This document shows, one piece after another, positions 25,315-53,318 of a stretch of DNA of 64,000 nucleotides. Below the pieces are notes generated by a model. The model searched no databases and was not told the origin of the DNA. It saw nothing but the letters and a program-made list of their open reading frames with translations. Position 1 is the stretch's first letter. Each line of letters opens with the position of its first letter. The translations under genes and the position numbers were made by a program. This DNA comes from Pseudonocardia sp. KRD291 (GTDB taxonomy: Bacteria > Actinomycetota > Actinomycetes > Mycobacteriales > Pseudonocardiaceae): contig NZ_JADQDD010000003.1 in the NCBI RefSeq assembly GCF_019263595.1, forward strand, positions 1-64,000, in the 5' to 3' direction.

Positions 25315-25315
25315 C

Positions 25316-26095
25316 ATGGCACTCACCGGCGGCGACGTCGTCCTCGAGCGCGGGCACGACGGGCGGGTCGCCTACCTGACCCTGTCCCACGGGAAGTACA
25401 CGGTCGTCACGATGGGCATGCGCCGGCTGGTCGCCGAGCGGTTCGCCGAGATCGACCGGGACCCGCAGATCCGGGTCGTGGTGGTCCGCTCGGACGGCGA
25501 GCACTTCACCTCCGGCGGCGACATCGCCGGGTTCATGGAGGTCGACCCGATCGACCTCACCGACCTCGGTCACGACGTCACCGCTGCGGCCCGCAGCACC
25601 AAGCCGGTGATCGCCGCGATCGACGGCTACTGCTTCGGCGTCGGGCTGGAGATGGTGCTGTCCTGCGACATCCGTCTCGGCACCCCCCGTACCCAGCTCG
25701 CGCTGCCCGAGATGAACCTCGGCATGATCCCCGGCTCCGGCGGTACCCAGCGTCTGGCCCGGCTGATCGGGCTGTCCCGGGCGAAGTTCCACATCATGAC
25801 CGCGACGCGGATCAAAGCCGAGCAGGCGTTGGACTGGGGCCTGCTGGCCGGCCTGTCCGACGACCGCGACGCGCTGTACTCGGACGTCGACGCTCTGGCG
25901 CAGAAGATGGCCGGCTTCTCCCCGGCCGCGCTGCGCACGGCCAAGGAGGTGCTCGACCGCGGAGTCGACGGGCCCCTCTACACCGGCATCGAGCTGGAGC
26001 GGAAGGCGTACTCGATGCTGCGGGCGACCGAGGACTTCGCCGAGGGCGTCAAGGCGTTCGGGGAGAAGCGTGCGCCGAACTTCACGGGCCGCTGA
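25316..26095 (+). CDS. enoyl-CoA hydratase/isomerase (crotonase) family protein
   Basis: The 259-residue protein has crotonase motifs HFTSGGDIAGFMEVD, DGYCFGVGLEMVLSCDI and LPEMNLGMIPGSGGTQRLARLIG. Glutamates are retained in both active-site segments. It lies inside the Mo-hydroxylase operon, between the large and FAD subunits; its stop and the next start overlap as TGATG. It probably hydrates or hydrolyses a ring-derived enoyl-CoA; exact reaction unknown. Confidence 0.86.
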   Translation: MALTGGDVVLERGHDGRVAYLTLSHGKYTVVTMGMRRLVAERFAEIDRDPQIRVVVVRSDGEHFTSGGDIAGFMEVDPIDLTDLGHDVTAAARSTKPVIAAIDGYCFGVGLEMVLSCDIRLGTPRTQLALPEMNLGMIPGSGGTQRLARLIGLSRAKFHIMTATRIKAEQALDWGLLAGLSDDRDALYSDVDALAQKMAGFSPAALRTAKEVLDRGVDGPLYTGIELERKAYSMLRATEDFAEGVKAFGEKRAPNFTGR

Positions 26096-26961
26096 TGAAG
26101 GCCGCACCGTTCGCCTACGTCCGCCCCGGCCGGCTCGAGGACGTGCTCGACGAGCTGGCCGGCGGGGACGGCAAGGTACTGGCCGGTGGCCAGTCGTTGG
26201 TGCCGGTCCTCGCGATGCGGCTGGGCCGCCCGGACACCCTGGTCGACATCACGGCCGTGCCCGAACTGGCCTCCTCCACATCTGACGAGGACGGCTACCG
26301 GGTCGGCGCGGCGGTGCGGCAGCGCGCGGTCGAGCACGACCGTGCCTCCCGCGCGGTCCCGCTGATCGGGATGGCCATGCCGTTCGTCGGGCACCGGGAG
26401 CTGCGGAGCCGCGGCACGGTGTGCGGCAGCCTCGCGCACGCCGACCCGGCCGCCGAGCTACCCGCCATCGCGTGTTGCCTCGAGGCGACGGTCGAGCTGG
26501 CCGGCCCGGCCGGACGGCGGAGGATGCCGGCCGAGGAGTTCGTGACCGGTGCGATGAGCACCGCGGCCGGCCCGGAGGACGTCGTCGTCTCGGTGACGTT
26601 CCCCCTCGCCCGTCCCGGCGAGGGGTTCGGGTTCGCCGAGCTCGCCCGGCGGCACGGCGACTTCGCGCTCGCCGGCGTGGCCACCCGGGTCCGGGTCGGC
26701 GGCGACGGCGCCGTGACCGACGCCCGGCTGACCGGGTTCGGGATCTCCGACCGGGCCGTGACCCGGAACGTCACGTCGCTGCTGACCGAGCACGAGGGCG
26801 ATCTGCGCCCGGCCACCGCGGCGCTCGCCGACGCGGTCGTCGACACCGGAGGGGACACGCACGGCTCCACCGGCTATCGACGCCGGCTGTTCGGCGTGCT
26901 CGCCGCCCGCGAGCTGTCCCGCGCGCTGCACCGCGCGCGAAACCGGAAAGAGGGTTCATGA
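26095..26961 (+). CDS. Mo-hydroxylase FAD-binding (medium) subunit, CoxM/CutM type
   Basis: The 288-residue protein contains VLAGGQSLVPVLAMRLGRPDTLVDI (FAD pyrophosphate loop, ~32-56) and SRGTVCGSLAHADPAAELPA, characteristic of CO-dehydrogenase-type FAD subunits. It lacks the extra 4Fe-4S insertion of 4-hydroxybenzoyl-CoA reductase HcrB, arguing for a hydroxylase rather than a dearomatising or dehydroxylating reductase. Coupled by overlap to both neighbours. Confidence 0.88.
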   Translation: MKAAPFAYVRPGRLEDVLDELAGGDGKVLAGGQSLVPVLAMRLGRPDTLVDITAVPELASSTSDEDGYRVGAAVRQRAVEHDRASRAVPLIGMAMPFVGHRELRSRGTVCGSLAHADPAAELPAIACCLEATVELAGPAGRRRMPAEEFVTGAMSTAAGPEDVVVSVTFPLARPGEGFGFAELARRHGDFALAGVATRVRVGGDGAVTDARLTGFGISDRAVTRNVTSLLTEHEGDLRPATAALADAVVDTGGDTHGSTGYRRRLFGVLAARELSRALHRARNRKEGS

Positions 26962-28202
26962 CCACGGTCGAGCCGAAGCGGACGAGTCCCGCGGAGCCAC
27001 GGGCCCGGGTGGCCGCCGACGAGACCGCCGGGATCACGATGACGGTGAACGGCACCGAGACCACGGTCACCGTGCCGCCCCGGGCGCACCTCGGTGACGT
27101 GCTGCGTGAGCAGCTCGGTCTCACCGGCACCCACCTCGGCTGCGAGCACGGCGTCTGCGGCATGTGCACCGTCCTCGTCGACGGCGAGGCAGCCCGGGCC
27201 TGCCTGATGTTCGCGGTGCAGTGCGAGGGCTCGGAGATCGTGACCGTCGAGGGCCTGGGCACGCCCGACGACCAGCACCCGCTGCAGCAGGCGTTCTCCG
27301 CACATCACGGGCTGCAGTGCGGGTTCTGCACTCCCGGGATGCTCATGAGCAGCTACGACCTGCTCGCGAACACCCCGGACCTCGAGAGCGACGACCTCCC
27401 CGAGCACATGTCCGGCGTGCTCTGCCGGTGCACCGGTTACCGCGGCATCCTCGCGGCCGTCGACGACGTGCGGCAGACCTACCCGGACGGTGTCCCCGAG
27501 CCACGGGCGTGCGGCGCGCACACCCTGGTCGGGCGGGCCTCGGCGGGCGGGACCGGAACCGCCGCGGCCGAGGCGGACGTCCCGGAGGCGGCGCTCCCGC
27601 AGGAGGTGCGGCTCCCGTCCGGGCCACCGTCGGCGGTCGTCGACGTGACCAGCCGGCTCCACTCGCCCGTCGAACGGGTGTGGGCGGTGCTCGACGACTT
27701 CGACCTGCTCGCTCGCTGCCTGCCCGGGGCCCGGCTGATCGAGGTGCTCGACGGTGACCGGTACCGCGGGCGCGCCGTCGTCGCGCTCGGCCCGGTGAAG
27801 CTGTCCTTCGACGGCCTCGCGCAGGTCGTCGAGCGCGACCCGCGGGAGCACCGGCTGCGGTTCCACGCCCAGGGCGCCGACGCCGGCGGCAGCGCCACCC
27901 AGGCCGACGTCGTGCTGGGTGTGCAGGCCGAGCCGGGCGGCGGCACGACGGTTCTGACCGCACACGCCGACGTCCATCTCACCGGCCGGGTCGCGCAGTT
28001 CGGCCGGGCGTTGGCCGGGGACGTGTCACGCCGCATGTTCGAGCAGTTCGCGGCCGGCGTCGACGAGGCCGCGGAGACCGGCTCGGTCACCGAACCCGGC
28101 CGGGGTGCGCAGCTCCGCCTGGTGCTGGGGACCGTCCGGGACACCGTCCGCGCGCTCACCCGCCGTGGGCTCGCCGGCGCCCGCACGCTGTGGCGCCGGT
28201 AG
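26958..28202 (+). CDS. Mo-hydroxylase [2Fe-2S] small subunit fused to a CoxG-like SRPBCC domain
   Basis: The ATG at 26958 overlaps the previous stop. Residues ~25-190 are the iron-sulfur subunit: the ferredoxin cluster uses Cys62, Cys67, Cys70, Cys82, and the second cluster Cys121, Cys124, Cys156, Cys158 (CGFCTPGM, CRCTGYRG). After a linker, residues ~225-370 (SRLHSPVERVWAVLDDFDLL, RCLPGARLIEVLDG) are a CoxG-type START/SRPBCC domain, normally a separate protein that helps anchor or assemble CO dehydrogenase-type enzymes at the membrane. The basic amphipathic C-terminus (RALTRRGLAGARTLWRR) could contact membrane. Total 414 residues against ~160 for a normal small subunit. Confidence 0.9.
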   Translation: MTTVEPKRTSPAEPRARVAADETAGITMTVNGTETTVTVPPRAHLGDVLREQLGLTGTHLGCEHGVCGMCTVLVDGEAARACLMFAVQCEGSEIVTVEGLGTPDDQHPLQQAFSAHHGLQCGFCTPGMLMSSYDLLANTPDLESDDLPEHMSGVLCRCTGYRGILAAVDDVRQTYPDGVPEPRACGAHTLVGRASAGGTGTAAAEADVPEAALPQEVRLPSGPPSAVVDVTSRLHSPVERVWAVLDDFDLLARCLPGARLIEVLDGDRYRGRAVVALGPVKLSFDGLAQVVERDPREHRLRFHAQGADAGGSATQADVVLGVQAEPGGGTTVLTAHADVHLTGRVAQFGRALAGDVSRRMFEQFAAGVDEAAETGSVTEPGRGAQLRLVLGTVRDTVRALTRRGLAGARTLWRR

Positions 28203-28248
28203 TCGCCCCGCTCCCCAGTCCGGTAAGTGATCGCGAGGAGGCGACACG

Positions 28249-29559
28249 ATGACCGCACCCACCGACGAGCCCGCCGAGGGCCTGGCCCCCGTCGAGTACA
28301 TCGCCGGCCCGGAACCGCGGCCGCCCCGCCGGATCGAGCCGGGCCCCGGGATCCGGTCGGGGCTGCGCGACCTGCCCCGGCGGCTGAACCCCGCGACGAT
28401 CGGCGCCGGGGTGGTCGCGGCCGTGTTCGGCTGCACCGGCCCTGCGCTGATCGTGATCGACGGCGCCGCCGCGAACGGACTGGCCGGCGAGGTGATCTCG
28501 TCGTGGATCTTCGGGATCTACGTGTTCGGGGGATTGATCTCTCTGATCCTCGCGCTGCGCTACCGGATGCCGGTCGTCGGCGCGTACTCGATCCCGGGTG
28601 CGGTCCTCGTGGTCGGGGCGCTGGCGACGTTCCCGTTCTCCGCCGTTGTCGGGGCGTTTCTCGTCGCGGGACTCATCGTGCTCGTACTCGGGTTGTCCGG
28701 GCTGATCGGCACGGTGTCCCGGTGGCTGCCGCAACCGATCGTGATGGCGATGATCGCCGGGGCACTGATCCGGTTCGGTACCGGGGTGGTGACGGCGGCC
28801 GAATCCGCGCCGTGGATCGTCGGGGCCGCGGTGGCCGGGTTCCTGCTGCTGTCGCGGTTCGTCCCGGCAGTACCCGGGGCGCTGGGCGCACTGCTGGCAG
28901 GGTTGGTCGCCGCCGTGGTGACGGGTGGGTTCGCCGCGCAGGCCACCGCCGTGGACGGCTGGACGGCGCCGATTCTCGTGGCCCCGACATTCGACGTCGG
29001 CGCGATCCTGGCCGTCGGGATCCCGCTCGCGGTTCTCGTGATCGCCGCGGAGAACGCCCAGGCCTACGGCGTGCTGCTCAGCCAGGGCTACCGGCCACCG
29101 ATCAACGCGATGACGGTCGCCAGCGGCGTCGGCGGGCTGCTGGCTCCGCTGACGGGCGGCCACAACGCCAACGTCGCCGGCCCCATGACAGCGATCTGCT
29201 CGGGCCCGCAGGCCGGACCGGACCCCGACGCCCGGTACGCCGCGAGCGTCGTGAACGGACTGCTGTTCGTCGCGTTCGGCGTGCTCGCCGGGTTCGCCGT
29301 CACCGCGGTCACGGCGCTGCCGACCGAGCTGGTGTCGGTGGTCGCGGGGCTCGCGATGATCGGTGTGCTGGTCTCGTCGTTCCGTGGCGCGTTCGGCGAC
29401 GGACGCTTCCGGACCGGCGCGCTGACGGCGCTGGTGGTGGCGATGAGCGGGGTCGCGCCGCTGGGGGTCTCCAGCCCGTTCTGGGCGCTCGTCGCCGGCG
29501 TCGCGATGTCGGCGGTGCTCGAGCCGGGCGACTTCCGGACCGGGGCCGAGGCCGTGTGA
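28249..29559 (+). CDS. benE: BenE-type benzoate/H+ symporter
   Basis: An ATG behind GAGGAGG opens a 436-residue protein with about 12 hydrophobic segments. The N-terminal LNPATIGAGVVAAVFGCTGPAL and the middle GGLLAPLTGGHNANVAGPMTAI are diagnostic of the benzoate membrane transport (BenE) family. It completes the CoA-ligase and Mo-hydroxylase operon and implies an aromatic carboxylate as the imported substrate. Confidence 0.9.
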   Translation: MTAPTDEPAEGLAPVEYIAGPEPRPPRRIEPGPGIRSGLRDLPRRLNPATIGAGVVAAVFGCTGPALIVIDGAAANGLAGEVISSWIFGIYVFGGLISLILALRYRMPVVGAYSIPGAVLVVGALATFPFSAVVGAFLVAGLIVLVLGLSGLIGTVSRWLPQPIVMAMIAGALIRFGTGVVTAAESAPWIVGAAVAGFLLLSRFVPAVPGALGALLAGLVAAVVTGGFAAQATAVDGWTAPILVAPTFDVGAILAVGIPLAVLVIAAENAQAYGVLLSQGYRPPINAMTVASGVGGLLAPLTGGHNANVAGPMTAICSGPQAGPDPDARYAASVVNGLLFVAFGVLAGFAVTAVTALPTELVSVVAGLAMIGVLVSSFRGAFGDGRFRTGALTALVVAMSGVAPLGVSSPFWALVAGVAMSAVLEPGDFRTGAEAV

Positions 29560-42602: not shown

Positions 42603-43646
42603 TCAACGGGTGGTGGTGATCTTCGACAGCCCGCCCGGGTGGTCGATGTCGACACCCCGGGTGACCGCGAGTTGCCAGGCCAGGGCCTGCGCCGGTACGG
42701 CGCAGACCAGGGGGCTGAGCCATCCGGGCACCTCGGCCGGGACCGGGAGATCGGCGCCGGGCCCGAGGACGACCACCGGTGCGCCTCGCTCGCGCAGTGC
42801 CGGGACCAGGTCGCGGACCGACGCCGATGCCGGCTCGTCCGGGGCCACCAGCAGCACCGGGGTGTCCGGGCCGACGGCCGCGATCGGTCCGTGCCGCAGG
42901 TCGGCGGGGGAGTAGGGGATGACCAGGGCCCGGGTCAGTTCCGTGATCTTCAACGCGGCCTCGTGCGCGGTGCACAGGTTGAGCCCGCGTCCCACGGCCA
43001 CCGCCCGGGTGAGGCCGGAGAGCCGCTGCGCCACCGCGGCGGCGTCCGCGGGCCGGATCGCCTCGGCGATCCGCGACGGCAGCGCCGCGAGCTCGCGCAG
43101 GGCCTCCGGCTCGTCGTCCGGTGCGCCCATGGCCAGCGCGAGCAGCGCCACCCCGAGCAGGGAGGCGGTGTAGGTCTTCGTGGCGGCCACCGACCGTTCC
43201 GGCCCGGTCGCCATGTCCAGCACGTGATCGGCCTGCGCGGCCAGCGCGGAGCCCGGGTCGTTGGTGATCGCGACCGTGGGGCAGCCCTGGGCGCGGGCGT
43301 CGGCGAGCACGGCCACGACGTCCGGGGAGGCCCCGGACTGGGAGATCGCCACCACCGTGGCGCCGCGGACGTCGGGGGCCCGGCCGTAGACGGTGGACAG
43401 GCTGGGCGCGGCCAGCCCCACCGGGAGCCCGGTGCGCAGCGGCAGCAGGTACTGCGCGTAGCGCGCGGCGTTGTCCGAGCTCCCCCGGGCCGCGACGACG
43501 ACGCCCGCGGTGCCGGAGGTGAGCCGCCGCAGGGTCCGGACCTCGTCCGGGGCCCGGTCGACCAGACGCGCGATCACCTCCGGCTGCTCGCGCAGCTCGG
43601 CTTCGAGCAGGGTGCCGGGAGCACCGTCGCGGGGCGGGGGTGTCAT
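42603..43646 (-). CDS. double-SIS-domain sugar isomerase/deaminase (AgaS / NagB-II-like)
   Basis: The start at 43646 overlaps the nanE stop (ATGA). The 347-residue protein has two SIS domains: VVAARGSSDNAARYAQYLLP and VVAISQSGASPDVVAVL in the first, AVAVGRGLNLCTAHEAALKI and SPADLRHGPIAAV in the second. It resembles the isomerase half of GlmS without the glutaminase part, as in NagB-II glucosamine-6-phosphate deaminases. As last gene of the sialic-acid operon it should convert glucosamine-6-phosphate to fructose-6-phosphate. Confidence 0.85.
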   Translation of the reverse strand: MTPPPRDGAPGTLLEAELREQPEVIARLVDRAPDEVRTLRRLTSGTAGVVVAARGSSDNAARYAQYLLPLRTGLPVGLAAPSLSTVYGRAPDVRGATVVAISQSGASPDVVAVLADARAQGCPTVAITNDPGSALAAQADHVLDMATGPERSVAATKTYTASLLGVALLALAMGAPDDEPEALRELAALPSRIAEAIRPADAAAVAQRLSGLTRAVAVGRGLNLCTAHEAALKITELTRALVIPYSPADLRHGPIAAVGPDTPVLLVAPDEPASASVRDLVPALRERGAPVVVLGPGADLPVPAEVPGWLSPLVCAVPAQALAWQLAVTRGVDIDHPGGLSKITTTR

Positions 43647-44377
43647 GGCTGTCCTCGCAGGTCGATGGGGTGTGTCGGGCCCGGGCCCGCCTGCGTCACC
43701 GCGTGGGCGAACGACCGGGTGATCCAGGTCGGGTCGGTGATGGCGGTCCCCACCACGACGGCGGTCGCGCCGGCCCGGATCGCGGCGGCGGCGACGTCGG
43801 GCGAGTGGTAGCGGCCCTCGGCCACCACGGGGAGGTCCGGGGCACCGTTGCACAGCGCGGTGACCAGCGCGAGGTCGGCACCGGTGAGCCCCGCCGTCTC
43901 GGCGGTGTAGCCGGACAGGGTGGTGGCCAGCAGGTCGGCGCCCGCGGCGGCGGCCCGGAGCCCGTCCTGCACCGTGGCCACGTCGGCCATCACCAGCGCG
44001 CCCAGCTCGTGCACGGCGTCGATGCTGGCCGCGAGCGGGGCACCGTCCGGGCGGGGCCGGACCGTGCCGTCCAGGGCCACCACGTCGGCGCCGCAGCGGG
44101 CCACCGCCCGCGCCGCGTCCACGGTGGGGGTGATGAACACCGGGTCCCGGCCCTGCTTGGTCAGCCCGATCATCGGGACGTCGACGGCCGCGCGCACGGC
44201 GGCCACGTCGTCGAGGCCCCCGACCCCTCCGCAGCGCACGGCCACCGCACCGCCGTCGGCGGCCGCGCGGGCCAGCCGGGCGATGGTCGCGGTGTCCCGC
44301 AGCGCGTGTCCGGTCCCGGCCTGACAGGACACGATCAGCCCTCCGCCGATCCGGTCCAGCAGCTCGGCGCGGTTCAC
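43643..44377 (-). CDS. nanE: N-acetylmannosamine-6-phosphate 2-epimerase
   Basis: The 244-residue TIM barrel has GGLIVSCQAGTGHALRD, PMIGLTKQGRDPVFITPTVD and VVAEGRYHSPDVAAAAIRAGATAVVVGTAI in pieces matching NanE, including the catalytic Lys in LTKQ. It converts ManNAc-6-P to GlcNAc-6-P. It overlaps the nanK stop and the SIS gene start by 4 bases each. Confidence 0.92.
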   Translation of the reverse strand: MNRAELLDRIGGGLIVSCQAGTGHALRDTATIARLARAAADGGAVAVRCGGVGGLDDVAAVRAAVDVPMIGLTKQGRDPVFITPTVDAARAVARCGADVVALDGTVRPRPDGAPLAASIDAVHELGALVMADVATVQDGLRAAAAGADLLATTLSGYTAETAGLTGADLALVTALCNGAPDLPVVAEGRYHSPDVAAAAIRAGATAVVVGTAITDPTWITRSFAHAVTQAGPGPTHPIDLRGQP

Positions 44378-45324
44378 CGGAGCTCTCCGGCGAGCCGGCG
44401 GGCGGCCAGGAGCGCCGGGCCGAGGATCGGCGCGTCCCCGGTACCGGGCCTCAGCACCGGAGTGGCGCGGCCGGGCGGGCGGGACTCCGCGTCCAGCGCC
44501 CGGGTCAGTGGGTCGAGCAGCGGGGCCCCGAGCTCGGTGACCCCGCCGGCCACGACGAGCGCGTCCAGATCGAGCGCGGTGACCAGACCGGACAGGGTCC
44601 GGCCGAGCAGGGTGCCGGCACGGGCCACCACCTCACGGGCCAGCGGGTCGCCCGCCCGCATCCGGGCGGCCACCGTGACCAGGTCCGCCCCGGTCCCCCC
44701 GGCGCCGGCGCGCGTGTCGTAGGCGGCGGCGATCGCCGGGCCGGCCGCGACGGCTTCGAGGTGGTCGAGCCGCCCGCAGCCGCACGGGAGGTCGCCGGGT
44801 TCGGGGACCAGCAGGTGCGCGATCTCGCCCGCGGTCCCGCCGTCTCCGCGCAGGACGCTCCCGGCACAGGTCAGGGCCCCACCGACCCCGGTTCCGAGCG
44901 ACACGTGCAGCACCCGGCGACAGCCGTGGACCGCGGGGTCGCGGGCCTGGGCCAGTGCCGCGGCACGGACGTCGTTGTCCACCGCGACGGGCAGCCCGAC
45001 CCGGCCGGAGAGCAGGTCGGCGACCGGGGTGCCGAGCCAGCCCGGGACGATGTCGGTGCAGGAGCTCACGACGCCGGTGGCCGCGTCGATGACGCCGGGA
45101 GCGCCCACGCCCACCGCGGCCACCGGATCCGGCGCCTCCCGCAGCAGCTGATCGACCAGGTCCGCCGCCCGCGCGACGATCGCCCGCCCGCCGGTCCTCG
45201 GGGTCGGGCAGGACAGCCGTGCGCTCACGCGCCCACCGTCCGCGACGAGACCTGCGGCGATCTTGGTTCCACCGATGTCCACCCCGATCAGCCCGGCGTG
45301 GCCGGCGGCGGGGGAGGCGGTCAC
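44374..45324 (-). CDS. nanK: ROK family kinase, probable N-acetylmannosamine kinase
   Basis: The 316-residue protein begins IGVDIGGTKIAAGLV (ATP phosphate loop) and contains AVDNDVRAAALAQ and HVSLGTGVGGALTCAG. The ROK zinc motif CxCGxxGCxE is altered to CGCGRLDHLE, with His in place of the third Cys, which might still bind metal. Operon position between nanA and nanE, with overlaps at both ends, supports phosphorylation of ManNAc. Confidence 0.87.
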   Translation of the reverse strand: MTASPAAGHAGLIGVDIGGTKIAAGLVADGGRVSARLSCPTPRTGGRAIVARAADLVDQLLREAPDPVAAVGVGAPGVIDAATGVVSSCTDIVPGWLGTPVADLLSGRVGLPVAVDNDVRAAALAQARDPAVHGCRRVLHVSLGTGVGGALTCAGSVLRGDGGTAGEIAHLLVPEPGDLPCGCGRLDHLEAVAAGPAIAAAYDTRAGAGGTGADLVTVAARMRAGDPLAREVVARAGTLLGRTLSGLVTALDLDALVVAGGVTELGAPLLDPLTRALDAESRPPGRATPVLRPGTGDAPILGPALLAARRLAGELR

Positions 45325-46250
45325 CGCAGTCCCGCGGTCTCGAGGTGCCGACGGATCCCGTCCACCTCGGTGTCGAGCAGCGGGAGCTGGGGTGTCATCG
45401 TGGCCGGGCAGTCGATGATGCCGCGCAGGTGCAGCGCGGCCTTGAAGGCGCCGAGCGCCGAGGAGCTGGGGCCGATCCGGGCTGGGTCTCCCGCCTCGAC
45501 GATCCCGAACAGCTGCAGCAGCCGGTCCTGCTCGTCGGCCGCGGCCTTGTGGTCGCCGGCCCGCACGTGCCCGGCCAGGGCGACGTAGCCGTGCGGGTCG
45601 ACGTTGCCCAGGCCGGGGACCGCGCCGTCGGCTCCCGCGAACAGCGCGCTGTCCACGGTCAGCTCGGAGCCGGTGAGCACGCCGAACCCGTCCGGGCCGC
45701 TCCGGGCCCGACGACCCAGGAGCCGGCGCAGGCCCCCGTCGTCGCCGCTGGAGTCCTTCACCCCGGCGAGCACGCCGTCGGCCGCGAGCGCGAGAAGCAT
45801 CTCCGGGCGGAGCTTCACCTGCACCGACACCGGCAGGTCGTAGGCGTAGAGCGGCAGGTCGACACCGGCGGCGACGGCCCGGAAGTGCTGCTCGATCTCG
45901 GCCGGGTGGGTACGGGTGTAGAACGGCGCGGTTGCGACGACGGCGTCTGCTCCCGACTGCTGCACCGTGCGGGCGTGGTCGAGCACCCGCGGCGACGTCA
46001 TGTCGATCGCGCCGCCGAGAACGGGCACCTGACCGGCCACGACCGAGACGGCCACCTCCAGTACCCGCGCCCGGTGCCGGTCCGGGAGGTAGGCGGTCTC
46101 ACCGCTGGATCCGAGCAGGAACACCGCGTCCACGCCGGCGTCCAGCAGGAACGTGAGCAGGCGCTCCAGGGACCGGTCGTCGACCTCGAGGTCGGGGGTG
46201 AGCGGGGTGCAGACCGGGGGGACGATTCCGGTGATCGGGCCTGGGGCCAT
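45321..46250 (-). CDS. nanA: N-acetylneuraminate lyase (DHDPS/NAL family)
   Basis: The 309-residue TIM barrel has FLLGSSGETAYLPDRHR (GSSGE, carboxylate binding), the Tyr of LPLYAYDLPVSVQ and the Schiff-base lysine in LAGVKDSSGDDG. The GSSGE motif and operon with nanK and nanE favour cleavage of sialic acid to ManNAc and pyruvate. AGAGG precedes the ATG. A closely related DHDPS-family gene exists at 35969 but shares no operon logic. Confidence 0.85.
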   Translation of the reverse strand: MAPGPITGIVPPVCTPLTPDLEVDDRSLERLLTFLLDAGVDAVFLLGSSGETAYLPDRHRARVLEVAVSVVAGQVPVLGGAIDMTSPRVLDHARTVQQSGADAVVATAPFYTRTHPAEIEQHFRAVAAGVDLPLYAYDLPVSVQVKLRPEMLLALAADGVLAGVKDSSGDDGGLRRLLGRRARSGPDGFGVLTGSELTVDSALFAGADGAVPGLGNVDPHGYVALAGHVRAGDHKAAADEQDRLLQLFGIVEAGDPARIGPSSSALGAFKAALHLRGIIDCPATMTPQLPLLDTEVDGIRRHLETAGLR

Positions 46251-46331
46251 CTCATGTCCTCTGTTCGGGTCGGGCGACGGTCGTGGTCGGTGGGATCGGG
46301 GCAGGGCCGGGTGCGGGACCGCGCGAGGCCG

Positions 46332-47486
46332 TCACCGGGACACCCCGCCCAGCGGAGAGCCGTCGATCGCGTCCACATCGGTCGCGGCGTCCGGGCGCGG
46401 CAGTCGTTGCAGCCGGGTCGGGGCGTCGATGCCGATCAGGACCAGCACCACGAGCGTCAACGAGAACGACAGCACGGCCAGCGCCGTACCCAGGCTCATC
46501 GTGGCGCCCAGGCTGGCCCCGAGTGCCGGCGCGACCGCTCCGCCGAGCGCCCCGACGTTGTAGGTGAACCCGAGCGCGGCGGCCCGCTGGCGCACGTCGA
46601 AGTAGCCGCCGATCCACTTCGGCAACAGCCCGGAGATGCCCTGGCCGAAGACCTGCTGGACGAACAGCAGCACACCCAGCAACAGCAGGCTCGACCCACC
46701 GACGGCGAACACCGGGAAGATCACCACCTGGGAGATCAGCAGGCTGACCCAGTACGCCCTGCGGGTGCCCCACCGGTCACCGGTGAACCCGGCGACCCAG
46801 CAGCCGACCGCCGCTCCGAGACCGGCGAAGAACAGCACCTGGCTCGCTTCGGTGGGGCTGTAGCCCAGGTCGGTCTTGAGGTAGGTGGGGAGCAGCGACT
46901 GGATCGGCCAGGAGTAGAGGAACGCCGCGAAGACGATCACCATCACGGCCAGCCCGGTGGGCCAGCGCGGGCCGGCGAACTGGACCACGTAGGACACGAA
47001 GACCGCGGCCGCGAGCACCCCGAGTCCGGCCACCGCCCAGGCGGACCCGACCGACTGCGTGAAGATCAGCACCAGGGCGGCGGTCGCGACCGCTCCGGAC
47101 ACGACGTTGGGCAGTGCACGCCGGCCCCCGAACAGCGTCTGCGCGACCGGCACGCTGTGCGGCGCATCGCCGGAGGTCGGTTCGCGGCTCCAGTCCTGTG
47201 ACTCCGGCAGCCTGCGGCGAAGCCAGATCGCGAGCACGATCGGCGCGAGCCCGATGTAGAACAGTGCCCGCCAGCCGAACGCCGGTACCACTACGGCGTA
47301 GATCCCGGCCGCCAGCACGGTTCCGATCGAGTAGCCGGAGATCAGGAAACCGCTGGCCTTGTTCCGCAGCCCGACCGGCCACGACTCGATGACGTAGGTC
47401 GAGCTCGCCCCGTACTCGCCGGCCATCCCCAGACCGATCACCAGGCGGGCCGCGAACAGCACGGCGAACGACGGCGCCAGCCCGCA
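46332..47486 (-). pseudogene. nanT: MFS sialic-acid transporter (NanT-like), 5'-truncated
   Basis: Recognisable sequence begins at about TM3 ([20 protein letters not shown], then [17 protein letters not shown]) and runs to the end of a sialate:H+ symporter. The first two membrane segments and the start region are missing. Reading leftward the homology ends at 47486, exactly where a GntR effector gene begins on the other strand. Upstream residues in the open frame ([10 protein letters not shown]) are the antisense of that gene. The protein is almost certainly non-functional. Confidence 0.8.
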
Positions 47487-48010
47487 TCGTGGACACCCGG
47501 CACGGGCACGGCTCGATCGTCGGCGAGCCCTCACTGCACGTGCTCTCCCCGTCGCTCACGTTCGGCGCCGTGAGCACCACCACCCGCAGCGGCCTGCGCA
47601 ACCTGGTCGAGATCCGAGAGCTGATCGAGGTCGGGGTCGTCGGCAAGCTCGCCGGGGCCCTCACCGACCAGGCTCTGGACCGTCTCGCCGAGCTGTGCGA
47701 CGAGATGACGCACTCCGGGCTCGATCCCGACGCCGACCGCGAGTTCCATCGGGTCCTCTACGCCGGAGCCGACAACCCCCTGATCGGCCAGCTGGTCGAC
47801 GTCTTCTGGGACGCCTACCGGGCGGCACAGGCGGTGCTCGACCCTCCTGGCCGGGGCGACACGGCGGAGACCGTGGCCCGCCACCGCCTCATCGTCGACG
47901 CACTGCGGGCCGGTGACGCCGACGTGGCCCGCACCGCGATGCACGACCACTTCGCGGAGATCAAGAAGAGGCTCGACGACAGCTCCCCCGACGACCGGCG
48001 GCGCCGCTGA
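47483..48010 (+). pseudogene. GntR/FadR-type regulator (FCD domain only), 5'-truncated
   Basis: The frame starts within the end of the winged helix ([14 protein letters not shown]) and continues through a complete FCD effector domain (EIRELIEVGVVGKLAGALT, DREFHRVLYAGADNPLIG, ARTAMHDHFAEIKKRL). The DNA-binding helix-turn-helix is missing. It abuts the truncated nanT head to head, so both lost their 5' ends and the shared promoter in a single deletion. Confidence 0.8.
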
Positions 48011-48050: not shown

Positions 48051-48701
48051 TCAGTGGCCGGGCCCGTGCCCGACCAGCATCATCAGGGTGTCGGCGAGTT
48101 GCTCGATCGCCCGGTCCCGTGCCGCGGCATCGAGACCCGAGCACCACAACGGCGCCTGCGACATCGAGGCGTGCATGCACTGCATCGCCGAGTCGACGTG
48201 GGGCACTCGGAACTCGCCCGTGCTGACGCCCTCCTCGACGACCCGCCGGAACAGGCGGTCGTGGCGGCGACGGAGCTCCTTGATGCGGGCGTGCTGGTCC
48301 TCGGGCCAGTCACCGGGCACCAGGAACAGCCCGAGCGCGGCCGGGTACTCGCACACCGCGATCGCGATGTGCTCACGCAGCAGGCTGCGCAGCTTCTCCC
48401 CGGGGGAGCCCTCGTGTGCTGCGAGGAGGTTCTCGAGTCGTGAGGTCCATTCGTTGCCCAGCGTCTCGATGGCCGCGGTGCCGAGCTCGTCCTTGCTGGG
48501 GAAGTAGTAGTACAGCGATCCCTTGGTGACATCGAGACGTTCGGCCACGTCCTCCAGGCTGACCGCGGCGTAGCCGCGCTCGCCGAACATCTCGGCGGCC
48601 GTGGTCAGGATCTCCTGGATCCGGCGTCCCCGCTTGCGTTCGACCCGGCTCGACGGTGGTCGGGGCCCGCTCCCGTCGACGGTCTGGTGCTGCGTCGTCA
48701 T
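48051..48701 (-). CDS. TetR/AcrR family transcriptional regulator
   Basis: The start is taken at ATG 48701 (MTTQHQTVD), since residues before it lack family sequence. The 216-residue protein has a TetR HTH (SLEDVAERLDVTKGSLYYYFPSKDEL) and a helical sensor domain of the AcrR_C type. It is divergent from the cyclohexanecarboxylate-like operon at 48882, occupying the position that BadR/AliR-like regulators hold in other species. It probably represses the operon until an alicyclic acyl-CoA binds. Confidence 0.86.
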   Translation of the reverse strand: MTTQHQTVDGSGPRPPSSRVERKRGRRIQEILTTAAEMFGERGYAAVSLEDVAERLDVTKGSLYYYFPSKDELGTAAIETLGNEWTSRLENLLAAHEGSPGEKLRSLLREHIAIAVCEYPAALGLFLVPGDWPEDQHARIKELRRRHDRLFRRVVEEGVSTGEFRVPHVDSAMQCMHASMSQAPLWCSGLDAAARDRAIEQLADTLMMLVGHGPGH

Positions 48702-48881
48702 CGGCCCCCTCGTCCTCTCCTGGCGCACTCTGCGTACTGAAGGGTACTACTTCTCCCGGCCGGTCATCTATTGACTCATAGTTCAAACTTCTGCAACCTG
48801 GTCAACGTCCGGTGGCGAGGGTGTCCGGGAGGACACCGCCGCGGGGCGTGTTCGGTACGGACCAGGACGAAGGAGCCAGAA

Positions 48882-49682
48882 GTGGCGCAGGACTTCGAGG
48901 ACATCACCTACGAGATCGACGGCCCGGCCGCGGTGATCACGATGAACCGGCCGCAGCGCTACAACGCCTTCCGCGGGAAGACCGTCGAGGAAATGATCAA
49001 GGCGTTCCGCGCCGCGCAGGCCGACCACCAGGTGCAGGCGATCATCCTGACGGGGGCGGGGGACAAGGCGTTCTGTACCGGCGGCGACGTCAAGCAGCGT
49101 GCGGAGACCGGCGACTACGGGCCCACCGAGAGCGGGATGTTCGAGATCGGCAACCTGCACAAGCTGATCCGCGACATCCCCAAGCCGGTGATCGCGGCCG
49201 TGAACGGTCTCGCGATCGGCGGCGGGCACGTGTTGCACGTGCTCTGCGACGTCACGATCGCCGCGGACACCGCCCGGTTCGGCCAGTCCGGCCCGAAGGT
49301 CGGTTCGTTCGACGCCGGGTTCGGCTCGGCCTACCTCGCCCGCGTCGTCGGGGAGAAGCGGGCGCGCGAGATCTGGTTCTGGTGCCGCCAGTACGACGCG
49401 CAGGAGGCCAGGACGATGGGGCTGGTGAACGCCGTCGTGCCGGCCGACGAGCTGCAGGCCGAGGCACGTCGCTGGGCCTACGACGTGGCGGAGAAGAGCC
49501 CCACGGCGATCCGCTTCCTCAAGCAGTCGTTCAACGCCGACACCGACCACCAGGCCGGGCTGTCCAACATGGCGATGTCCGCGCTGAACCTGTTCACCGA
49601 GTCCCCCGAGGGCCGGGAAGGCGCGGCGGCGTTCGCCGAGAAGCGGGCTCCCGAGTTCGCCAAGCACGTCACGGGTCACTGA
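48882..49682 (+). CDS. badI: BadI-like 2-ketocyclohexanecarboxyl-CoA hydrolase (crotonase superfamily)
   Basis: The GTG at 48882 is 6 bases after AGGAG. The 266-residue crotonase carries the BadI/MenB-type signatures NRPQRYNAFRGKTVEE, KAFCTGGDVKQR, GLAIGGGHVLHVLCDVTIAA, FGQSGPKVGSFDAGFGSAYL and EIWFWCRQYDAQEA. This close match to the BadI pattern (ring-opening hydrolase giving pimelyl-CoA) is reinforced by downstream AliB-, BadH- and AliA-like genes. MenB (naphthoate synthase) is the main alternative but does not fit the operon. Confidence 0.85.
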   Translation: MAQDFEDITYEIDGPAAVITMNRPQRYNAFRGKTVEEMIKAFRAAQADHQVQAIILTGAGDKAFCTGGDVKQRAETGDYGPTESGMFEIGNLHKLIRDIPKPVIAAVNGLAIGGGHVLHVLCDVTIAADTARFGQSGPKVGSFDAGFGSAYLARVVGEKRAREIWFWCRQYDAQEARTMGLVNAVVPADELQAEARRWAYDVAEKSPTAIRFLKQSFNADTDHQAGLSNMAMSALNLFTESPEGREGAAAFAEKRAPEFAKHVTGH

Positions 49683-49690
49683 GGACCACC

Positions 49691-50839
49691 GTGGATTTCG
49701 ACGTCACGGACCGGCAGGCCGAGTACTGCGGGCGCGCGCGGGCGATCAGCGAGACGCGGCTGCTCCCTGGCTACCGGGCACGCGAACGCGACGGTCACAT
49801 CGGGGCCGACCTGCGCGAGGAGATCGGCCGGGCCGGGTTGATCGCCCCCGAGACCCCCACCGAGCTCGGCGGGCAGGGGCTCGACCGGCTCACCACCGGA
49901 ATGATCACCGAGGAGATCGGCCGCGGTGACGTCAACGTCGCCTACCTGCAGGTCGTCGGATCGCTGGTCGCACAGATCCTCGCCGGCAACGCCGACCCGG
50001 AGCTCGCGCACCACTGGGTGCCGAAGATCTGCAGCGGCGAGGAGATCGTCGGCATCGGCCTCACCGAGCCGCACGCCGGCTCGGACGCCGGGATGCCGCG
50101 CCTGACCGCCCGCCGCGACGGCGGCGACTGGGTGCTCGACGGGGTGAAGTCGCTGTCGTTCGCCACCGACGCGGCGGCGGTGGTGGTCTTCGCCCGTACC
50201 GGGCCCTCGCGGGACCGGGGCAAGGACATCAGCGCCTTCCTGGTGCCACTCGACCTCGACGGGGTCTCGCGCGAGCCGTACTCCGACATGGGCACCAGGG
50301 CCGTCGGTCGCGGCGCGGCCCACCTGAGCGGCGTGCGGGTCCCGTCCGGTCACCTGCTCGGCGCCGAAGGGCGCGGGTTCACCCAGGTCATGGCGGGCTT
50401 CGACTTCAGCCGCGCGCTGATCGGTCTGCAGTGCCTCGGTGCCGCACAGCAGACCCTGGACGAGACGTGGCGCTACGTCGGCGAGCGCGAGGCGTTCGAC
50501 CAGCCACTGAGCCGTCATCAGGGAGTGGCGTTCCCGCTGGCCGAGGCCGAGACGCTGGTCTGCGCGGCGCGCCTGCTCTGCCACCAGACGCTGTGGCTCA
50601 AGGACGCGGGCAGGCCGCACACCTCCCAGGCCGCGATGTGCAAGTGGTGGGCCCCCAAGACCGCCTACGACGTCATCAACCAGTGCCTGCTCCTGCACGG
50701 CCAGTACGGCTACCGCACCGAGCTTCCGATCGAGCAGCGGATGCGCGACGTCCTCGGCCTGCAGATCGGCGACGGGACGGCCCAGATCATGAAGCTCGTG
50801 ATCTCCCGGCAGCGGCTGGGCCGCCGGCTCGCTCCCTGA
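49691..50839 (+). CDS. aliB: acyl-CoA dehydrogenase, probable cyclohexanecarboxyl-CoA dehydrogenase (AliB-like)
   Basis: The GTG start lies 8 bases after the badI stop. The 382-residue protein has GIGLTEPHAGSDAGMPRLTA (FAD/substrate loop) and LHGQYGYRTELPIEQRMRDV. At the site where most acyl-CoA dehydrogenases have the catalytic Glu (YEGT) it has GDGT, with Asp361. This substitution suggests a specialised alicyclic dehydrogenase. In the operon it should introduce the 1,2 double bond into cyclohexanecarboxyl-CoA. Confidence 0.82.
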   Translation: MDFDVTDRQAEYCGRARAISETRLLPGYRARERDGHIGADLREEIGRAGLIAPETPTELGGQGLDRLTTGMITEEIGRGDVNVAYLQVVGSLVAQILAGNADPELAHHWVPKICSGEEIVGIGLTEPHAGSDAGMPRLTARRDGGDWVLDGVKSLSFATDAAAVVVFARTGPSRDRGKDISAFLVPLDLDGVSREPYSDMGTRAVGRGAAHLSGVRVPSGHLLGAEGRGFTQVMAGFDFSRALIGLQCLGAAQQTLDETWRYVGEREAFDQPLSRHQGVAFPLAEAETLVCAARLLCHQTLWLKDAGRPHTSQAAMCKWWAPKTAYDVINQCLLLHGQYGYRTELPIEQRMRDVLGLQIGDGTAQIMKLVISRQRLGRRLAP

Positions 50840-50871
50840 CGAGCCGGCATTCGACGAGGAGGGCATCACCC

Positions 50872-51618
50872 ATGGGAAATCTGGACAGCAGGATCGCCAT
50901 CGTGACCGGCGCCGGCCAGGGCATCGGGCGCGCCATCGCGGAGAAGCTGGCCGCGGAGGGTGCGACCGTGGTGGTCGGCGACATCAACGACACCACGGCG
51001 AAGGAGACCGCCGCAGCACTCGGTGGCGGCGCCGTCGGCGTCCGCGCCGACGTCACCGACGCGGAGTCGGTGAACGCGATGGTGGAGCAGGTCCGTTCGC
51101 AGTTCGGTCGGATCGACATCCTGGTCAACAACGCCGGCTGGGACAAGGCGAGCCCGTTCGTCGACTCCGACCCCGCGGACTGGGACCGGGTCATCGCGAT
51201 CAACCTCTACGGCGTCCTGCACACCTGCAAGGCGGTACTACCGATCATGGCCGAGCAGGGTCACGGATCGGTGGTGAACCTGGCTTCCGACGCCGGCCGC
51301 GTCGGGTCCTCGGGCGAGGCCGTCTACTCCGCGGCCAAGGGCGGGGTCATCGCGTTCACCAAGACCATCGCCCGGGAGATGGCCCGCCACGAGATCAACG
51401 CCAACGTGGTCTGCCCCGGCCCGACCGACACCGCGCTGTTCGCCTCCATGGGGGGCGACGACCCGAAGCTGCGCGACGGCCTGACCCGCTCGATCCCGTT
51501 CCGGCGCCTGGCCCAGCCCGCCGACCTCGCCGGTGCGGTCGCGTTCTTCGCCTCGCCCGACGCCTCCTACATCACCGGCCAGACCGTCAGCGTCAGCGGC
51601 GGGCTGACGATGAGCTGA
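50872..51618 (+). CDS. badH: SDR, probable 2-hydroxycyclohexanecarboxyl-CoA dehydrogenase (BadH-like)
   Basis: An ATG behind GAGGAGGGC opens a 248-residue classical SDR: TGAGQGIG cofactor loop (~12-19), NNAGWD, a catalytic Ser in ASDAGRVGSSG and YSAAKGG. The stretches ASDAGRVGSSGEAVY and NVVCPGPTDTALF and the C-terminal ITGQTVSVSGGLTMS follow the BadH pattern closely. It would oxidise the 2-hydroxy-CoA ester to the 2-keto substrate of BadI. Confidence 0.85.
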   Translation: MGNLDSRIAIVTGAGQGIGRAIAEKLAAEGATVVVGDINDTTAKETAAALGGGAVGVRADVTDAESVNAMVEQVRSQFGRIDILVNNAGWDKASPFVDSDPADWDRVIAINLYGVLHTCKAVLPIMAEQGHGSVVNLASDAGRVGSSGEAVYSAAKGGVIAFTKTIAREMARHEINANVVCPGPTDTALFASMGGDDPKLRDGLTRSIPFRRLAQPADLAGAVAFFASPDASYITGQTVSVSGGLTMS

Positions 51619-51633
51619 TCCGTCCGCCCCTCA

Positions 51634-51672
51634 CCTGCGACGACATCTCCTGCGACGACATCTCCTGCGACA
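51634..51672 (+). repeat. 15-bp tandem repeat (about 2.6 copies) between badH and aliA
   Basis: CCTGCGACGACATCT occurs at 51634-51648 and 51649-51663, with a partial third copy from 51664. It lies directly upstream of the aliA ribosome-binding region and probably arose by slippage. It lengthens the spacer but leaves the AAGGA before the ATG intact. Confidence 0.8.
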
Positions 51673-51683
51673 AGGACGTTGCC

Positions 51684-53318
51684 ATGGCCTTCGACACGAC
51701 CCTGACCACCGATCTGATCCGGCGCTACACCGACCAGGGTTACTGGCGGGACCGCGTGATCACCGATTGCCTCGACGAGGCCGCCACGGCCACACCGGAC
51801 AAGGTCGCCTTCGTCGACCCCCGGCGTCGGGTGACCTATGCCGAGCTGCGCCATGAGGTCGACCGGTGCGCGCTCGGCCTGATCGAGCTCGGTGTGCGTC
51901 CTGGTGACGTGGTCTCGTTCCAGCTGCCGAACTGGATCGAATGGATCGTCGTGCACTACGCGGCCTCCCGGATCGGAGCGGTGAGCAACCCGCTCATCCC
52001 GATCTACCGCGAGCGGGAGCTGGGCTTCATGGTCGGCCTCGCCAAGTCCAAGGTCGTCGTGGTGCCCCGCACGTTCCGCGGGTTCGACCACGCGGCGATG
52101 ATCACCAAGCTGCGCGGCGACTGGCCCGCGCTGGAGCACGTCCTGGTCGTGGACGGTGACGGCGCAGAAGGCACCTCGTCCTGGGAGGAGTTCGCCGCCA
52201 CCCCGTGGGAGCAGCGCCGGGACCCCGGCGAGTTGGCGGAGCTGCGCCCGGACCCGAACGACGTCACACTGCTGATCTTCACCTCGGGCACCACCGGGGA
52301 GCCCAAGGGCGTGATGCACACCCACAACACCGCGGTCGCGGCGAACGACCCGCTGCCGCAGCGGCTCGGCATCAGCGCCGACACCGTGTTCCACATGGCC
52401 TCGACGCTCGCCCACCTCACCGGCTTCCTGTACGGGGCCCGGCTGTCGGTGCAGAACGGCGCGACGACGGTGCTGCAGGACGTGTGGGACCCCGCCCGGT
52501 TCGTCGAGCTCGTGGCCGAGCACGAGATCACCTACACCTCGGCGGCGACCCCGTTCCTGCACGACACGCTCGCCGCGCCGAACCTGGCCGAGCACGACAT
52601 GTCGTCGCTGGTCCGGTTCTGCTGCATGGGCGCCCCGATCCCGCGCGCGATCGTGCGTGCGGCCCGGGAGAAGCTGCCCGAGCTCGTGGTCCTCGGCGGC
52701 TGGGGGCAGAGCGAGGACGCCCTGGTGACGCTCGGGATCCCCGGAGACCCCGACGACAAGCTGATCGACACCGACGGGTACCCGTGGCCGGGGATGCGGA
52801 TCCGTGCGGTCGACGGGGCGGGGAAGGAGGTCGCGCCCGGTCAGGAGGGGCTCCTGCAGGTCACCGGGCCGTTCCTGTTCGTCGGCTACGCCGAGCGGCT
52901 GGAGATGACCCGCGACGGCTTCGACGGCGAGTGGTTCGACACCGGGGACCTGGCCACGATCGACGCCGAGGGCTACCTGAGCATCACCGGGCGCAGCAAG
53001 GACGTGATCATTCGCGGAGGGGAGAACATCCCCGTCGCCTACGTGGAGAACGTGCTCTACGAGCACCCCGACCTCGCCGAGGTCGCGGTCGTCGGGCTGC
53101 CCGACCCGCGACTGCAGGAACGGGCGTGTGCCTGCGTGGTCCTCGCCGCCGGCGCACCCGGGTTCACCGTCGACGACATGCGGGCCCACCTGAGCGAGAA
53201 GGGGGTGGCCAGGCATTACTGGCCCGAGCGTCTGGAAGTGCTCGCCGCGCTTCCGCGCACGGCCAGCGGGAAGATCCGGAAGTTCAGGCTGCGCGCCGAC
53301 TTCGGGGTGACGCCGTGA
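51684..53318 (+). CDS. aliA: AMP-forming CoA ligase, probable cyclohexanecarboxylate-CoA ligase (AliA-like)
   Basis: The 544-residue ANL ligase has FTSGTTGEPKGVMHTHNTAV (~195-215), GGWGQSEDALVT, WFDTGDLATIDAEGYL, GRSKDVIIRGGENIPVAYVE and the C-terminal lysine in RTASGKIRKFRLR. Operon position with AliB-, BadH- and BadI-like genes supports activation of cyclohexanecarboxylate or a related alicyclic acid. Its 3' end overlaps the convergent glycosyltransferase gene by 35 bases. Confidence 0.85.
   Translation: MAFDTTLTTDLIRRYTDQGYWRDRVITDCLDEAATATPDKVAFVDPRRRVTYAELRHEVDRCALGLIELGVRPGDVVSFQLPNWIEWIVVHYAASRIGAVSNPLIPIYRERELGFMVGLAKSKVVVVPRTFRGFDHAAMITKLRGDWPALEHVLVVDGDGAEGTSSWEEFAATPWEQRRDPGELAELRPDPNDVTLLIFTSGTTGEPKGVMHTHNTAVAANDPLPQRLGISADTVFHMASTLAHLTGFLYGARLSVQNGATTVLQDVWDPARFVELVAEHEITYTSAATPFLHDTLAAPNLAEHDMSSLVRFCCMGAPIPRAIVRAAREKLPELVVLGGWGQSEDALVTLGIPGDPDDKLIDTDGYPWPGMRIRAVDGAGKEVAPGQEGLLQVTGPFLFVGYAERLEMTRDGFDGEWFDTGDLATIDAEGYLSITGRSKDVIIRGGENIPVAYVENVLYEHPDLAEVAVVGLPDPRLQERACACVVLAAGAPGFTVDDMRAHLSEKGVARHYWPERLEVLAALPRTASGKIRKFRLRADFGVTP

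Follow-up and report, generated by a model that had tools for sequence, protein, structure and literature searches.

In a 64,000-nucleotide stretch of Pseudonocardia sp. KRD291 DNA (the window, part of contig C223 in a genome of 6.57 Mb and 525 contigs), positions 48882-53318 hold four adjacent plus-strand genes in the order badI-aliB-badH-aliA, with a TetR-family regulator gene facing away from them (Table 1). Judged by their predicted products, this operon very probably enables the actinobacterium to activate saturated carbon rings, for example that of cyclohexanecarboxylic acid, and to open them. The genes are separated by 8, 32 and 65 nt (hydrolase/AliB, AliB/BadH and BadH/AliA), and the operon stops at 53318, facing a convergent glycosyltransferase gene. 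All open reading frames (ORFs) that the original prediction placed here were found, including the divergent TetR gene that it described in place of a MarR-type BadR, and the Pfam domains of the operon proteins are as expected for each assigned type.

Table 1. Operon genes, regulator gene and palindrome, in window coordinates
Feature	Position	Strand	Start codon	Basis
TetR-family regulator	48051..48728	-		Pfam PF00440 and PF17932; 65-76% identical orthologues at 7 of the 10 named loci whose hydrolase is close
Palindrome TTGACTCATAGTTCAA, probable TetR operator	48771..48786			Kept upstream of the first gene in relatives
BadI-like ring-opening hydrolase (putative), crotonase superfamily, third clade	48882..49682	+	GTG	NCBIfam, trees, residue table, model and PDB comparison
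AliB-type cyclohexanecarboxyl-CoA dehydrogenase (predicted)	49691..50839	+	GTG	TIGR03207 top match (below cut-off), Asp361/Gly360 signature, tree
BadH-type short-chain dehydrogenase/reductase (SDR), probable 2-hydroxycyclohexanecarboxyl-CoA dehydrogenase	50872..51618	+	ATG	TIGR03206 top match (below cut-off), motifs, tree
AliA-type CoA ligase, probable cyclohexanecarboxylate-CoA ligase	51684..53318	+	ATG	TIGR03208 top match (below cut-off), motifs, tree, annotated aliA among the nearest plasmid records

For three of the four proteins the best NCBIfam match is the model of the assigned enzyme: AliB reaches 487.8 bits (cut-off 575.35), BadH 310.6 (cut-off 431.2) and AliA 561 (cut-off 792.3). The SDR contains TGAGQGIG, NNAG and YSAAK and the ligase TSGTTGEPKG, TGDL and PRTASGK, motifs of their families. 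Judged by such matches, AliB, BadH and AliA belong to the kinds of family that the original prediction gave them, but the call is ambiguous for the crotonase, which is not a straightforward BadI. The ligase joins annotated AliA in its tree rather than unrelated ligases, whose company would have counted against the original prediction, at a fork of only 87% SH-aLRT (Shimodaira-Hasegawa-like approximate likelihood ratio test) that is drawn open, and annotated aliA genes are among its nearest relatives in 21 plasmid records. AliB likewise clusters with annotated AliB. At its catalytic position, where Glu is usual, all 25 AliB-like rows (chosen at at least 39% identity to the window protein) have Asp in a small pocket, preceded by Gly in 23 and by Ala in 2; in the six other acyl-CoA dehydrogenases compared, which include those of loci resembling the chcpca cluster of Rhodococcus aetherivorans BCP1, the residue is Glu or Gly and follows a Tyr. 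Excerpts of PMC11659651 describe the residue before the catalytic glutamate as usually Tyr, and as smaller with alpha-substituted substrates, for example cyclohexane-1-carbonyl-CoA. We regard the AliB signature as good evidence that the substrate is a ring or otherwise alpha-branched.

Position of the hydrolase beside MenB and BadI

The first gene product of the operon scores higher with the MenB model PRK07396 (361.4 bits; cut-off 380) than with the badI model TIGR03210 (343.9 bits; cut-off 467.6). In a tree of 67 rows, drawn from 89 matches with at least 40% identity over at least 220 aligned residues and reduced to distinct sequences, the clade of the window hydrolase (support 95/99) and that of MenB (98/98) are recovered, and the BadI-type fork is weak (88/54) with two BadI-type rows lying outside it. 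After eight divergent or long-branched rows had been dropped and only 32 of the 42 window-clade rows kept, the resulting 50-row tree held the window clade (100/99), BadI-type proteins (99/98) and MenB (100/100) all separate.

Residues, numbered here after E. coli MenB, also set the window clade apart. Catalytic Ser161 and Asp163 and the oxyanion-hole residues Gly86 and Gly133 are retained in all 42 rows of the window clade. Tyr258 is present in nine of nine MenB rows (five annotated menB and four others) and in nine of nine BadI-type rows (five annotated badI and four others), whereas position 258 is Thr in the window protein and Thr, Gly, Val, Ala, Ser or Leu across its clade. The loss is not unique to this clade, because seven of the eight distant rows dropped from the tree also lack Tyr258, L040 keeping it. 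Arg91 is retained in the window hydrolase; position 97 aligns to Asp, an ambiguous placement with a Tyr one residue further on. From proteobacterial BadI the protein differs at positions 89-109 and at 258. The structural model (predicted local distance difference test score 83.9) was not used to place residue 258, its C-terminal part being less certain (block means 57-74). A sequence search of the PDB at E <= 1e-40 returned 14 sequences under the names MenB and EchA8 only. Taken together, the trees and residues indicate that the hydrolase belongs to a third clade, neither MenB nor canonical BadI, whose active site has changed.

The same genome holds further homologues of this hydrolase, at C162 (65% identity, cut by the contig end), C491 (44%, with Ala at 163) and C124, where only residues 3-73 and 206-264 are represented within a 168-codon ORF. 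The C124 locus (L012, 3516-9963) is a second, partly degenerate-looking cluster in which the hydrolase-like ORF without its middle third accompanies an AliB-type dehydrogenase (TIGR03207 top match at 349.5 bits, below cut-off), a ligase and another acyl-CoA dehydrogenase. At the C491 locus (L010, 6300-7097 and 7214-7984) the divergent MenB/BadI homologue with Ala for Asp163 lies opposite a BadH-like SDR (51%) and probably catalyses a different reaction.

Relatives of the operon and known alicyclic-acid clusters

Scanning named genomes turned up 51 related loci, 10 of them with a hydrolase at least 74% identical to that of the window. AliB-, BadH- and AliA-like genes are all present in six of these 10 loci and a divergent TetR gene in seven, and the arrangement is more than chance. 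Among the incomplete loci, L017 is without BadH, no AliA was seen at L031 and L032, and L020, on a short contig, has a different BadH. The nearest named relatives by hydrolase are Pseudonocardia, Amycolatopsis and Prauserella; in the latter two the AliB slot is taken by another type of AliB, which shares about 45% identity with that of the window and keeps the AliB signature. Within the genus of the window 21 of 62 genomes have an AliB match at E <= 1e-110, 19 of these at at least 70% identity. Across the order 19 of 298 genomes match the badI model at E <= 1e-90, none over its cut-off, a threshold that is unspecific in that it also picks up MenB in 3 of 14 control genomes. Loci of Haematobacter, Paraburkholderia and Salipiger annotated badI/aliB/aliA carry the same set at greater distance (BadI 54-58%, AliB 52-54%, BadH 51-55%, AliA 43-45%).

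Bad-ali and chcpca clusters are described from Rhodococcus, Corynebacterium and proteobacteria in the portions of PMC4591350, PMC5906575 and PMC9795900 consulted, and searches of a paper library listed no publication that treats one in Pseudonocardia or Amycolatopsis. The pathway is ordinary and already known in relatives, with a slightly unusual hydrolase; what is added is the third hydrolase clade without Tyr258 and a conserved TTGAC-N6-GTCAA upstream of the first gene. As in the bad-ali clusters of Rhodopseudomonas palustris and Aromatoleum sp. CIB, AliA, AliB, BadH and a BadI-like hydrolase are encoded together and the deduced chemistry is the same. Here, however, all four proteins fall under the equivalog cut-offs, the hydrolase has its own clade, a divergent TetR gene and a palindrome stand in for MarR-type BadR, and badK is lacking. 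According to parts of PMC9795900, BadK is often encoded outside bad-ali clusters, and in the bad-ali-like clusters of Gram-positive Rhodococcus and Corynebacterium TetR replaces MarR and badK is frequently lacking. The TetR gene is usually co-directional there, whereas that of the window is divergent.

The chcpca cluster, which excerpts of PMC5906575 report to be induced on cyclohexane- and cyclopentanecarboxylate, resembles the window operon differently. The BadI-like protein of chcpca-like loci falls in the same clade as the window hydrolase (78-81% identity), BadH is about 50% identical and TetR genes lie nearby. In contrast, the ligase there is of another family (window AliA is about 28% identical to it), the acyl-CoA dehydrogenases are without the AliB Asp, window AliA and AliB being nearer to the proteobacterial enzymes, and the order is badI-badH-ligase-GCDH-acyl-CoA dehydrogenase. 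In a Rhodococcus-like genus the close hydrolase occurs in 12 of 18 genomes, one match being partial, and six of these loci, read further, run from the hydrolase through BadH (49-52%) and another ligase to an acyl-CoA dehydrogenase; their chcpca label is based on gene order and on one genome's protein that is 98.5% identical to an R. aetherivorans plasmid protein. L125, from a different genus, shows the published chcpca order of hydrolase, BadH, ligase, GCDH-like protein and acyl-CoA dehydrogenase. By these identities the window hydrolase has relatives in an induced alicyclic-acid cluster, while the ligase and dehydrogenase are nearer to those of proteobacterial bad-ali. Pseudonocardia, Amycolatopsis and Prauserella thereby join the groups with bad-ali-like clusters, and the comparison provides a way to tell these from chcpca.

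Tentatively, the actinobacterial proteins called BadI, including those of chcpca-like loci, may constitute a third MenB/BadI family. Its members would open the rings of alicyclic 2-ketoacyl-CoAs in the absence of the subunit-crossing Tyr258, through a changed hold on the ring ketone or nascent carboxylate, and would have entered several operons in which ligases and dehydrogenases are interchangeable, possibly to act on non-cyclohexane rings. This is a speculation to which we give somewhat less than even credence. If it is true, the tyrosine would be dispensable for retro-Dieckmann ring opening, and annotators could put a name to 'enoyl-CoA hydratase-related' proteins at present overlooked.

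A hydrolase of 79% identity is also encoded on a Mycobacterium dioxanotrophicus plasmid (L065, 3407-9537) together with GroEL, an NDMA-dependent alcohol dehydrogenase, an aldehyde dehydrogenase and a BadH-like SDR, a set that hints that a cyclic alcohol might feed into this pathway.

A conserved palindrome between the divergent genes

The palindrome TTGACTCATAGTTCAA, with half-sites TTGAC and GTCAA, is a probable operator of the divergently encoded TetR protein. Upstream of the first gene at 16 loci with an orthologous TetR, TTGAC-N6-GTCAA is matched exactly in 12, with one mismatch in three, the window included, and with two in one; L031 was left out of this count as a near copy of L032, and as the loci are related the figures represent conservation, not 16 independent events. 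In eight loci where no orthologous TetR was found, it is exact in L015 and has two to four mismatches in the other seven. The motif is not significant in the window alone (two matches against 0.60 expected), and genome-wide its degenerate form occurs at 13 palindromic places against 14 for a reversed control, which is no excess. A wider TetR regulon was considered and dropped, given this lack of excess and no other site clearly before a catabolic gene among crude ORFs only. A local operator is the simplest reading of the palindrome, which perhaps overlaps a -35 element, and TetR is probably a local repressor. The palindrome also offers a candidate operator for a naphthenic-acid biosensor.

Two other repeats lie in the non-coding parts of the operon. 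A perfect inverted repeat with a 7-bp stem (GGTGTCC/GGACACC) occupies 48820-48837 in the leader of the hydrolase gene and does not appear in the top three inverted repeats listed for 15 other upstream regions. Between the BadH and AliA genes, at about 51634-51673, is a short tandem repeat with a unit of about 15 bp (CTGCGACGACATCTC).

Proposed catabolic role and alternatives

We consider it likely that the locus is a catabolic operon under TetR control which, in the manner of bad-ali, serves the breakdown of cyclohexanecarboxylate or a closely similar alicyclic acid. From gene content, gene order, conservation, clade membership, residue signatures and the conserved palindrome we infer the following course. 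AliA would convert the alicyclic acid to its CoA thioester, AliB would take two hydrogens off ring carbons C1 and C2, and a hydratase encoded outside the cluster would add water. BadH would then oxidise the hydroxyl to a 2-ketone, and the BadI-like hydrolase would open the ring with water in a retro-Dieckmann reaction, giving a dicarboxyl-CoA of the pimeloyl-CoA type that passes to beta-oxidation. TetR would occupy the palindrome in the intergenic region and be released on binding a pathway intermediate.

Four sister clusters (L113, L114, L130 and L131) run on beyond the shared genes into a thiolase, a hydratase and acyl-CoA dehydrogenases. The L130 thiolase scores 634.3 bits with the 3-oxoadipyl-CoA thiolase model, above its cut-off of 597, and a thiolase of this type is expected for a dicarboxyl-CoA product; the extended clusters would therefore fit beta-oxidation of a ring-opened dicarboxyl-CoA. 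Their downstream acyl-CoA dehydrogenases reach no specific NCBIfam cut-off, 'GCDH-like' being a working name. With the L113 hydratase as query, only C46 (46%) and C45 (42%) match in the window's genome at E <= 1e-50. The original prediction had suggested the crotonases at 7243 or 25316 as suppliers of the BadK activity, a suggestion that gains no support: C46 and C45 match the sister-cluster hydratases better. In a comparison with five reference hydratases that covered 7243, 25316 and C45 and left out the C46 ORF, 7243 scores below C45 against four of the five and exceeds it by one bit against proteobacterial L069 alone (140 against 139), which leaves 7243 a possible though unsupported supplier. 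None of C46, C45, 7243 and 25316 looks like a BadK orthologue in these alignments.

Several findings weigh against the proposed bad-ali-like role. The equivalog cut-off is passed by none of the four operon genes, and Tyr258, constant in the MenB and BadI-type rows, is absent from 42 of 42 rows of the hydrolase clade. BadK is not in the cluster, as the original prediction had correctly stated, and has no clear orthologue in the genome. The lower pathway was not located in the genome by the searches made with L130 proteins: its thiolase found no match at E <= 1e-80, in a search run without a positive control, and relatives of its acyl-CoA dehydrogenases (ACADx) reach only 37-44%. Nor is the gene set fixed, as five further loci in the genus Pseudonocardia have TetR, AliB and BadH without a close BadI. 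A chcpca-type ligase is found in four of these five, and parts are exchanged between operons.

The same chemistry might act on another natural substrate, either cyclopentanecarboxylate or a ring acid with substituents that derives from terpenes or naphthenic acids, a possibility that we think unlikely though worth keeping in view. The separation of the hydrolase clade from proteobacterial BadI, with its differences at 89-109 and 258, speaks for it, as does the inclusion in that clade of an Azoarcus KH32C cluster without aliA or aliB annotation. Parts of PMC5906575 report chcpca transcripts up 180-800-fold on cyclopentanecarboxylate against 70-290-fold on cyclohexanecarboxylate, and excerpts of PMC9795900 mention badKHI clusters that have been proposed for monoterpenes. 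Against this, AliA and AliB are nearest to annotated cyclohexanecarboxylate enzymes, and the 3-oxoadipyl-CoA-type thiolase of the sister clusters fits an unbranched dicarboxyl-CoA. An operon for alpha-branched fatty acids, with dehydrogenase, SDR and ligase handling 2-methyl-branched chains and the crotonase serving as hydratase, is improbable. Any alpha-substituted acyl-CoA would suit the small residue that precedes the catalytic position of AliB, and the SDR and ligase scores lie below their cut-offs; however, the crotonase keeps Ser161 and Asp163 throughout its clade and sits in the MenB/BadI family, and AliB groups with annotated AliB.

That the crotonase is MenB of the menaquinone pathway, beside acyl-CoA genes by chance, we hold to be extremely improbable. 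It shares the fold, Ser161, Asp163 and the oxyanion-hole glycines with MenB, scores higher with the MenB model than with badI, has 58% identity to Anoxybacillus MenB, and MenB structures make up all of the best 50 Foldseek rows for its model. Tree, residues and the true MenB nevertheless lead us to reject this identity: the protein stands outside the MenB clade, it has lost Tyr258 and, subject to the ambiguity at that position, the aligned Tyr97, it is not in a men locus, and the genome's own MenB is found at C502 with 561.8 bits against a cut-off of 378. Grouping with MenB was among the outcomes that, by the original prediction, would refute it; the phylogeny shows no such grouping.

Two other regions of the window carry further gene sets. 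Adjoining the operon, 43643-48010 holds a sialic-acid-type set with a major facilitator superfamily transporter (top match the sialate:H+ symport family, below cut-off), a DapA/NanA-family lyase and a ROK kinase; from the look of the sequence only, a NanE-like gene and a regulator resembling GntR also belong to it. The row at 21399-29559, with a CoA ligase, a molybdenum hydroxylase large subunit, a crotonase and a BenE-type benzoate transporter, is likely an aromatic-acid catabolic set.

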